The translations under genes and the position numbers were made by a program. Source: Butyrivibrio sp. (GTDB taxonomy: Bacteria; Bacillota; Clostridia; Lachnospirales; Lachnospiraceae). From it: DNA of 64,000 bases. The DNA is taken from NCBI GenBank assembly GCA_017535785.1, contig JAFXTN010000023.1, positions 19,347 to 83,346 on the forward strand. Direction: 5' to 3'. Positions 4,607-53,040 of the stretch are shown here, in pieces; position 1 is the first letter of the stretch, and each line of letters begins with the position of its first letter. A model generated the notes under the pieces. It was given only the letters and a program-made list of their open reading frames with translations, was not told the DNA's origin and made no database searches.

Positions 4607-4612
4607 GCGATA

Positions 4613-4766
4613 AAAGGACTGAGTAAATGCAATGCCGTGCTTGCACGGGCTATTGCATTTATGAAAGGACTGAACGTACATGAGGAAAAAAGACATGCGA
4701 ACGCAGTGAGCAGGTCGATTTCCTCATGTACGTAGGATTGCGAGAATGCGAAGCATGTAGCAATCC
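4613..4766. repeat. Three consecutive foldback hairpins with unrelated arms
   Basis: Three hairpins follow argS. Hairpin A has 10-bp arms at 4624-4633 and 4652-4661 plus an inner CCGTGC/GCACGG stem. Hairpin B has perfect 14-bp arms at 4675-4688 and 4719-4732 around a 30-nt loop. Hairpin C has 7-bp arms at 4735-4741 and 4760-4766 around ATGC-GAA-GCAT. The arms share no sequence with each other. The loops of B and C share a GCGA...GAGCA/GAAGCA flavour with the tandem array downstream. AAAGGACTGA occurs directly before A (4613-4622) and before B (4664-4673). None has a T-run, so they are not ordinary terminators. Confidence 0.85.
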
Positions 4767-4773
4767 GTATTAT

Positions 4774-4919
4774 CGCGAACAAGATAGCGTGACGAAGGCA
4801 CGCGAACAAGATAGCGTGACGAAGGCACGCGAACAAGATAGCGTGACGAAGGCACGCGAACAAGATAGCGTGACGAAGGCACGCGAACAAGATAGCGAGA
4901 CGAAGGCACGCGAACAAGA
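4774..4919. repeat. 27-bp tandem repeat array, five units plus a partial sixth
   Basis: Units begin CGCGAACAAG and end GACGAAGGCA. They occupy 4774-4800, 4801-4827, 4828-4854, 4855-4881 and 4882-4908; the last has one T-to-A change, and a truncated sixth unit starts at 4909. The unit length is a multiple of three, so both strands stay open as repeated peptides (plus strand: EQDSVTKAR repeated). I treat those open frames as a consequence of the repeat, because they lack a ribosome site and any recognisable domain. The high identity suggests recent expansion. Confidence 0.92.
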
Positions 4920-49878: not shown

Positions 49879-49907
49879 TTGACAAATCAGAAGCCCATAA
49901 ATATAAT
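49879..49907 (+). promoter_or_regulatory. Consensus promoter for the ncRNA gene
   Basis: A perfect TTGACA (49879-49884) and perfect TATAAT (49902-49907) are exactly 17 nt apart. This is the best promoter in the window. Predicted start is near 49914. Confidence 0.85.
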
Positions 49908-49913
49908 TAAATC

Positions 49914-50288
49914 AGATAAAGGGATTAAGAAAATATAAAAATACTTCTCTCGGATCGGTTATAGGAGAGAAAGAAAGGCAGGTACACTCCAAAGGGACAT
50001 TTAGTTTAAATCTTTAAGGAAAGGATGGTACAGACCACCGGAAATTTTTAGTATTTAACTAAACTAATCGTTTTATCTAAGATGTAGAAAAACAGCATTT
50101 CCTGTACATGAAAAGTGGTTATGACAATATCAGTATCTTGCAACCACAGCATACGAGTGCAAATGTTAATGGAAAGATATGCTGAGAGTTTAGGAGGACG
50201 GTCCGTTGGACGAAGAAATATTTTTTGAAGATAAGTACTCGGTGTAAGGGCAGAAGTAGGTAATATAGATGAAGCTTCTGCCCTTTTG
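49914..50288 (+). ncRNA. Structured RNA gene of unknown class (~375 nt)
   Basis: Between a consensus promoter and a strong terminator I find no plausible coding region but several stems. Seven-bp TTCTCTC/GAGAGAA pair at 49945-49951 and 49965-49971. TTAGTTTA/TAAACTAA pair at 50001-50008 and 50060-50067. GTGGTT/AACCAC pair at 50115-50120 and 50142-50147. CAGCATA/TATGCTG pair at 50147-50153 and 50178-50184. GC-rich islands (GGTACACTCCAAAGGGAC, GGATGGTACAGACCACC) stand out from the AT-rich background. RNase P, tmRNA and SRP RNA signatures are missing. Length exceeds typical 6S RNA. The exact class cannot be told by eye; raiA, ROOL-like and OLE-like ornate RNAs should be tested. Confidence 0.7.
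50246..50287 (+). terminator. Terminator of the ncRNA
   Basis: AAGGGCAGAAG (50246-50256) and CTTCTGCCCTT (50275-50285) form a perfect 11-bp stem, followed by TTTT and a second T-run at 50294-50302. Confidence 0.9.
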
Positions 50289-50345
50289 TTATGCCCTTTT
50301 TTATGATAAAATAGGTTGAAAAATATTGTGGCATACGGGGAAGAT

Positions 50346-51646: not shown

Positions 51647-52372
51647 ATGCGACAATTCAGAAATGAATGGAAATATCTCATAAGCTACAGTGAGTACGAG
51701 ACGCTGAAATGTCAGATGAGGCCTTTTTTTCATCTTGACCCCAATGCTACTGATGACGGTTATCTGATCCGAAGTCTTTATTTTGACGATCTTTGGAATT
51801 CAGCATATGAGGAGAAGGAATGCGGCGTGTATTTCAGAAAGAAATACCGTATCAGGATCTATAATTTCTCCGACACGAGCATCAAGCTTGAGAGAAAGCT
51901 CAAGCAGGGCAGTTACATTTACAAGGAATCGGCATCGCTCACCAGAGATGAGGTATACAAGATCTTAGACGGCGATTATGAATTTCTTTTGCACTCTGAC
52001 AATAATCTGTGCAGAGAGTTTTATTATGAGTGTATGAGCAACATGATGAGACCGAGAGTCATAGTTGATTATGACAGAACTCCGTTTATAATGGATGCGG
52101 GAACTGTCAGGATAACTTTTGACAAAAAAGTAAGAGCGGCAGTGGGAGGCTTTGATATCTTTGATGATACGCTCCCGACATTATCGGCGCTTCCGTCCGA
52201 CAAGCTTATCATGGAGATAAAGTACACGGAATTTTTACCTAAGATAGTAAAGGAACTGGCTCCTCCTTCGAGAAGTGAATTCGTGGCAGCCTCAAAATAT
52301 GTTCTTTGCTGTGATAAAACCAAATATTTATTTGAAAATAACTATTATGCAGACGAGAGGAGTCTTATATGA
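51647..52372 (+). CDS. VTC-domain polyphosphate polymerase-like protein
   Basis: A 241-aa protein of the VTC/TTM superfamily, which in yeast makes polyphosphate from ATP. The tunnel strands are visible: RQFRNEWKYLISYSEY at the start, YLIRSLYFDD, YRIRIYNFSDTSIKLERKLKQ, RVIVDYDRTPFIM and IMEIKYTEF. Paired Glu/Lys/Arg residues line the tunnel as the family expects. No membrane helix is present; the following DUF4956 protein can provide the membrane partner. AAAGAGGG precedes the ATG. Confidence 0.9.
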   Translation: MRQFRNEWKYLISYSEYETLKCQMRPFFHLDPNATDDGYLIRSLYFDDLWNSAYEEKECGVYFRKKYRIRIYNFSDTSIKLERKLKQGSYIYKESASLTRDEVYKILDGDYEFLLHSDNNLCREFYYECMSNMMRPRVIVDYDRTPFIMDAGTVRITFDKKVRAAVGGFDIFDDTLPTLSALPSDKLIMEIKYTEFLPKIVKELAPPSRSEFVAASKYVLCCDKTKYLFENNYYADERSLI

Positions 52373-53040
52373 GCGTTAAAGACGTAATAAGGAAATCTAT
52401 TTTAAATTCAGACATTTATTCTACTTATGACCTTGGAAAGATAGCTCTTTCCCTTATAATCGCACTCATCATGGGTATGATCATCTATTTTGTTTATAAG
52501 AAGTTCTACGCGGGAGTTGTATTCTCCAAGAGCTTTGCGGTAACACTTATCGGTATGACGGTTCTCACATGTATGGTAACACTTGCCATCAGTACCAATA
52601 TCGTTATTTCACTCGGTATGGTCGGTGCTCTTTCTATCGTAAGATTCAGGACAGCCATCAAGGATCCGCTTGATCTTCTCTATCTGTTCTGGGCTATCAC
52701 GACCGGAATCACTGTCGGTGCGGGCATGTATTGGCTTACACTTGCTTCTGCAGTCATTCTTATCATCATGATCGTTTGTTTCTATGCAAAGGCTGCTACA
52801 GGCCAGGTTTTCGTAGCTGTTATCCACTACGAGGGTTCTGAAGCCGGAGATGAGATCATGAAAGCTTTCGGTAAGATCAAGCACTATCTCAAGTCTAAGA
52901 CACTTCGCGGAAATACAACAGAGCTTGCCGTTGAAGTATACGTTAAGAACGATGAGTTTACTTTTGAAAATGAGATCAAAAATATTGCCGGGGTAAAAGA
53001 TATTACGCTTATCCAGTACAACGGAGAGTATAACGGCTGA
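52369..53040 (+). CDS. DUF4956 membrane protein
   Basis: A 223-aa protein with about four membrane helices in the first 145 residues (IALSLIIALIMGMIIYFVYK and others) and a soluble C-terminal domain. LGMVGALSIVRFRTAIKDPLD is the family signature. DUF4956 genes are widely found with VTC-domain genes, and here the ATG overlaps the VTC stop. They probably form a polyphosphate-making complex, though this is not proven for this family. AGGAG precedes the ATG. Confidence 0.9.
   Translation: MSVKDVIRKSILNSDIYSTYDLGKIALSLIIALIMGMIIYFVYKKFYAGVVFSKSFAVTLIGMTVLTCMVTLAISTNIVISLGMVGALSIVRFRTAIKDPLDLLYLFWAITTGITVGAGMYWLTLASAVILIIMIVCFYAKAATGQVFVAVIHYEGSEAGDEIMKAFGKIKHYLKSKTLRGNTTELAVEVYVKNDEFTFENEIKNIAGVKDITLIQYNGEYNG

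Follow-up and report, generated by a model that had tools for sequence, protein, structure and literature searches.

Dual-function small RNAs combine a regulatory part with a small ORF, and the GOLLD, ROOL and OLE RNAs have families of their own in Rfam. The candidate RNA described here resembles dual-function small RNAs in that its gene is apparently independent and contains a ribosome-binding site and a short ORF; it differs from them in that the ORF, located at the 3' end and stopping at the terminator, has 5–6 codons in the majority of the other genera seen, and in having a conserved three-way junction as its upstream domain. The odc1 motif, which comprises a structured RNA, a ribosome-binding site and an 11-aa ORF, and other structured uORF motifs likewise join a structured RNA and a ribosome-binding site to a very short ORF, but they precede a main ORF (PMC8632094), whereas here a terminator comes next and no downstream gene is universal. 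The raiA/ModT RNA (RF03072) is a comparable conserved independent structured RNA of Bacillota, and the words "open reading frame" are absent from the main text of the ModT paper (PMC11706538), while GOLLD, ROOL and OLE share with our locus the character of large structured bacterial RNAs (PMC12286853); unlike all of these, the present region has no Rfam match. Comparably short ORFs of about five codons are found in the erythromycin-resistance pentapeptide minigenes, whose 4–6 codon ORFs act via their own translation and termination, with Leu or Ile at position 3 critical (PMC10314930, PMC2928234); here, position 2 is mostly acidic, and position 3 is Ile in 4/29 and Leu in 0/29 of the Lachnospiraceae family hits of our wider covariance model (R2). 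Structured RNAs that are independent and carry a small ORF are of a known kind, and this example is absent from Rfam.

The candidate gene occupies region 49879–50302 of the 64,000-nt stretch of Butyrivibrio sp. DNA that we analysed (the window), flanked by glyA (Pfam SHMT) and by a gene whose product has an N-terminal GH3 domain; all features given below lie on the + strand. A preliminary description had proposed here an abundant, independent noncoding RNA of unknown class, bracketed by a perfect promoter and an 11-bp-stem terminator. Both boundaries held up on comparison. The sigma-70 promoter TTGACA-17-TATAAT (49879–49907) agrees with the consensus at 12/12 positions and recurs in relatives, with a promoter-like match in 45 of the 46 same-genus loci where the two anchors could be placed (in 2/48 loci they could not, and L034 is the locus without a match). 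We infer 49914 as the start of the RNA, giving an extent of about 49914–50290 (~375 nt), and its presumed abundance is likewise read from the promoter alone. At the 3' end, an intrinsic terminator stem-loop (50246–50285) with an 11-bp stem (50246–50256 with 50275–50285) is evident by eye in the sequence; our terminator scan did not list it, because its loop probably exceeds the length that the scan allows. The terminator hairpin is retained at the same place across clades, even though its sequence is replaced between them.

Scanning the whole window with Rfam 15 returned no family at gathering threshold in the region, and relaxing the cutoff to E<=10 gave only chance scores there, as did the same search on 17 homologous loci; elsewhere in the window, the matches were tRNAs and one Clostridiales-1 RNA. 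With the window, the region and the 17 homologous loci all without a real match, a known Rfam class was ruled out, in keeping with the unknown class first proposed: the RNA class is absent from Rfam 15 and in that sense new to it. RNase P RNA and tmRNA, whose signatures had been reported as lacking at the locus, were eliminated since the genome carries its copies elsewhere (G000:C20 and G000:C18, respectively). The 6S RNA model (RF00013) found no match in the genome, but it matches just 5/14 controls, so a divergent 6S RNA could be missed; the raiA/ModT model (RF03072) found none in 31 relatives and was equally silent in control genomes. The RNA did not fit the full definition of any family tested. 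We found no publication on this RNA, although an earlier survey may have described it outside the families held in Rfam; the words Butyrivibrio, Lachnospir and Roseburia are absent from the main text of PMC11109978 and PMC8632094.

Searching 99 genomes at the DNA level gave matches at E<=0.01 in 54, among them 49/61 genomes of the same genus (47/61 at E<=2.4e-7), with the five matching genomes outside the genus at E 2.6e-4 or worse. Promoter, structured core and a terminator are all retained in the aligned homologues. With a covariance model built on the 3' domain (R1), 11/397 family genomes matched, and on reading, seven of the nine matches outside the genus were convincing (L053–L059), one was doubtful (L060) and one false (L061). 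The wider model R2 recovered 28/397 family genomes, representing 25/334 sampled genera with the own genus counted. At the level of the order, it matched 15/295 genomes, every one in the same family (Lachnospiraceae), and at the level of the class 6/391, every one in the same genus; neither the 295 order genomes nor the 391 class genomes gave a model match outside Lachnospiraceae, although the scans were strictly filtered, so that misses do not equal absences. Among named genomes, a pattern scan returned 70 stretches, of which 62 were kept, labelled Butyrivibrio or Lachnospiraceae and including the labels Acetatifactor, Roseburia and Blautia; the other eight (L062, L077, L085, L087, L100, L101, L121 and L127) were discarded as chance on account of a long reading frame or a terminator missing at the stop. 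Viral contigs, searched with one exact pattern only, gave 0 matches. Many Lachnospiraceae of gut and rumen have the predicted RNA, which, being kept in many genera behind a consensus promoter with no Rfam entry, likely matters to the cell.

The sequence folds better than its shuffles on both strands (z -2.43 on the + strand and -2.74 on the - strand), so folding energy alone is no proof of an RNA; a structured RNA is supported because covariation is present. The covariation lies in a three-way-junction domain (50093–50184) closed by stem P3, whose arms (50093–50098 with 50179–50184) show CAGC/GCUG, CAAC/GUUG and UGAC/GUCA changes and whose inner part, P3c, pairs 50107–50109 with 50169–50171. 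Within P3 lies an internal loop, GUA/GAA (50104–50106/50172–50174), seen by eye in the alignment with GUA in 17/19 rows and GAA in 16/19, which we take to resemble a loop-E (bulged-G) motif. In P4 (50115–50120 with 50142–50147), 5/6 pairs change on both sides, through variants such as GUGGUU/AACCAC, GUGGCG/CGUCAC, GUAGUG/CACUAC, GUAACG/CGUUAC, GCAGCA/UGCUGC and GUAACC/GGUUAC. When a script took the best arm in short range in 32 sequences, P4 formed with 6/6 pairs in 19 and 5/6 in 8, and was absent or poor in 5/32 (L071, L074, L075, L112 and L129). All four pairs of P5 (50149–50152 with 50157–50160) change on both sides (GCAU/AUGC, GCUU/AAGC, GUAC/GUAC and AUAU/AUAU).

Counted over the whole domain, both-side changes affect 7/21 pairs in an unfitted MAFFT alignment of 29 sequences, in which 96.4% of cells pair, and 14/21 pairs in a model-fitted alignment of 19 wider sequences, in which 95.6% pair and which leans towards the structure. 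The covariation score was reached by 0/500 shuffles in the unfitted and by 0/500 in the model-fitted alignment; for a second measure, further pair types, 26/500 and 7/500 shuffles, respectively, came up to the observed value. The domain covaries strongly, so the structured RNA first proposed is real and the covarying stems sought in its homologues were found.

The 5' part varies by group. A P1 hairpin (49945–49951 with 49965–49971) has arms that covary by eye, without a statistical count, as CTTCTCC/GGAGAAAG, CTTCAGC/GCTGAAAG and CTTCGATC/GATCGAAAG. Two GGUAC-type modules, a kind present in Butyrivibrio and some other genera, follow it. Module 1, GGUAY-NN-WCC (49981–49990), is highly conserved in Butyrivibrio and missing from some other genera; module 2, GGUA-N-NN-WCC followed by ACC (50027–50036), is conserved in the aligned Butyrivibrio homologues and found in several other genera, with none seen in the Acetatifactor-like group. 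Mutual pairing of the GGUAC and GGAGG modules showed no covariation by eye in the Butyrivibrio alignments. The GGUAC-type modules (49981–50036) also resemble the Shine-Dalgarno-spacer of the mini-ORF described below, and may be decoys or protein sites.

Between the junction and the terminator lies a cassette of fixed order, in which GGAGG is followed by a spacer, then usually by RGUCC and finally by an NUG start. The window has a Shine-Dalgarno GGAGG (50193–50197), with a start-codon spacing similar across loci, ahead of a 13-codon mini-ORF with a UUG start, MDEEIFFEDKYSV (50206–50247), whose UAA stop (50245–50247) overlaps the terminator stem by 2 nt and whose counterparts are kept as a start-to-terminator unit. 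The statement in the preliminary description that the region has no plausible reading frame consequently falls; a mini-ORF of this small size with a UUG start is easily missed. Across 73 distinct mini-ORFs, the product ranges over 5–22 aa in 11 different lengths (a later member, L159, has 23 aa), and the stops are 28 TAA, 24 TGA and 21 TAG. Conservation of the Shine-Dalgarno, the start and Asp2 is partly built in, since this region lies inside the search models and patterns; the start pattern admitted ATG, TTG and GTG only, and one pattern scan forced UUGGA.

The reading that we prefer, and to which we give about an even chance, is that of an independent RNA gene whose 3' mini-ORF is translated, with ribosome engagement as the functional event. 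On this reading, transcription from a consensus housekeeping promoter would yield a ~375-nt RNA in which the conserved three-way junction is succeeded by a ribosome-binding site and a very short ORF, and last by an intrinsic terminator fused to the stop codon. The role of the fold would be to present or to gate the Shine-Dalgarno/NUG site, and a ribosome that initiates there would, with its footprint, occupy the cassette as far as the terminator base. Comparison among loci supports the predicted promoter, the covarying structure, the start/stop architecture and the independence from neighbours; that the mini-ORF is translated, and that ribosome engagement at the 3' end is the function, we infer. 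Because the stop codon is built into the terminator, the RNA may be made to engage ribosomes, and because the start and the stop are kept while the peptide hardly is, ribosome engagement is favoured over the peptide. The most likely assignment is a ribosome-engaging regulatory RNA, either a dual-function RNA or a mini-mRNA, which might regulate through sensing, buffering or a base-pairing target, rather than the source of a sequence-specific peptide, although the odds of the ribosome-engagement reading overlap those of the peptide.

The neighbourhood of the RNA bears on a rather unlikely alternative, an attenuator of the downstream GH3 gene in which a ribosome on the mini-ORF would block the terminator and cause read-through. 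The GH3 gene is next on the same strand in 89/116 loci (some genomes counted twice, and GH3 identified through BLAST clustering with the gene in the window), a linkage that exceeds expectation for an unrelated neighbour and so counts against ribosome engagement as a self-contained function. Among Butyrivibrio loci, GH3 is present in 74/82 and glyA in 65/82; in the 34 non-Butyrivibrio loci, where neighbouring ORFs were likewise called mechanically, GH3 still follows in 15 though glyA lies upstream in none. This long-kept linkage leaves room for an attenuator, as do the mini-ORF stop at or inside the terminator stem, where the leader ORF of a leader-peptide attenuator would end, and the U-tract after the terminator, which is interrupted in much of Butyrivibrio. 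Against it, the next ORF outside Butyrivibrio is convergent in 11/34 loci and another, unrelated co-directional one in 5/34 (the contig ends in 3), so that the 116 loci offer no one consistent co-directional downstream gene. Furthermore, an extended -10 site (TGn-TATAAT-like) occurs <=60 nt past the terminator in 28/57 distinct loci with GH3 within 420 nt, compared with 2.8 expected from mononucleotide shuffles and 0/15 in convergent-type loci. Given these differing or convergent neighbours and the extended -10 site, GH3 is apparently transcribed from a promoter of its own and the RNA apparently forms a transcription unit by itself, and we rejected a GH3 leader as the RNA's main role. Of the independent noncoding RNA, not an mRNA leader, that had been proposed, the independence stands, while the mini-ORF leaves the claim that it is purely noncoding unsupported.

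A second alternative, which we also consider improbable, is a purely structural noncoding RNA in which a conserved hairpin, GUCC-NUU-GGAC, and the terminator would give rise to the NUG and the stop incidentally. The second codon, GAC/GAU, does belong to that hairpin, which in the window is GUCC-(GUU)-GGAC (50201–50211); no pair of it changed on both sides, leaving it without covariation support beyond G-U changes. The substitutions in the mini-ORF, too, lack a clear protein-level pattern. Stop placement, however, is frame-specific at differing ORF lengths: a stop lies at the terminator base in frame 0 at 57/84 loci, compared with 7/81 and 16/80 in the other frames. Outside Butyrivibrio, it is in frame at 42/43 loci, compared with 6/43 and 2/43, in a set of related loci for which the p-values of the frame test are overstated; the sole miss, L075, arose because the script chose another hairpin. 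This set omits duplicates, loci with <100 nt beyond the start codon, and L138, L151 and L153, in which the script found no hairpin, and does not include L141, L146, L148 and L162, whose ORF was then unlocated. For the 29 R2 family hits, with start codons partly located by eye, the in-frame count is 26/29, compared with 8/29 and 4/29, the three misses being L140 (other hairpin picked), L151 (+8) and L153 (2-codon ORF). TTG-to-ATG swaps, which preserve a start codon (21 TTG and 8 ATG among these hits), and the coding of Val5 by GTT (14), GTC (3) and GTA (1) also argue against by-products of structure; the in-frame stops and the start codons favour the reading that we prefer.

The chance is small that the product is instead a short functional peptide, M-D-x-x-V or a longer acidic one, behind a long structured leader and acting, for example, on its own ribosome. 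M-D-x-x-V is the commonest mini-ORF product, with Val at residue 5 in 18/29 and at the C-terminus in 18/29 R2 family hits, and the Butyrivibrio peptides mostly end in YSV/YSA or have QF in common; the middle residues, however, vary freely. Substitutions in the 10-aa group (22/13/31 at codon positions 1/2/3) show a mild third-position excess, but those in the largest group, of 13 aa (216/303/215), show none, so that selection at the protein level is not clearly indicated. The preliminary description had held that a conserved small protein would tell against a noncoding RNA; a conserved 3' mini-ORF does exist, but its amino-acid sequence is weakly conserved. Towards the 3' end of the mini-ORF in Butyrivibrio clade 1, GUACUCGG (50235–50242) is invariant in the aligned rows down to the nucleotide, third codon positions included; a pairing between it and the internal-loop strand GAGUAC was rejected, since changes in the partner are by eye uncompensated.

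A CsrB-type sponge for CsrA is very unlikely: csrA occurs in 59/71 genomes searched, CsrB has a length similar to this RNA, and ANGGA exceeds the shuffle mean in 17/18 RNAs (by >=2 sd in 4/18, namely L009, L055, L056 and L126), but plain GGA is within 1.5 sd of dinucleotide shuffles in 17/18, and the RNA is present in three genomes, 64–87% complete, where csrA was not found (G006, G022 and G032).

Returning to ribosome engagement, the fixed start-to-terminator cassette makes RNA function by this route a directly testable idea, and points to ORFs of about five codons as recognisable conserved units. Standard annotation would tend to miss the RNA because it is absent from Rfam, and the mini-ORF because it is so short. 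As a more tentative proposal, the locus could represent a new family of abundant folded RNAs that deliver a Shine-Dalgarno/NUG/five-codon/stop/terminator cassette, initiation and near-immediate termination, and not the peptide, being the function; if this is true, the function could be, for example, sensing or buffering free ribosomes, and these ORFs would be among the shortest conserved in bacteria.

Several observations lie outside these arguments. In the window, a Clostridiales-1 RNA (RF01699, 98.9 bits) lies at 4608–4775 (+). At 51647–53040, a VTC-domain protein is followed by a DUF4956 protein, a pair that we take to be likely polyphosphate-related. Two loci, L097 and L072, are a longer variant with no Rfam match, with the promoter lying about 420 nt before the start and a different upstream body joined to the same SD-start-stop-terminator end. 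In one genome the RNA is present as two neighbouring copies, L137 and L153 (G210:C57:183441-183589 and 184191-184343); the second of this tandem, L153, has a 2-codon ORF and is possibly a decaying copy.
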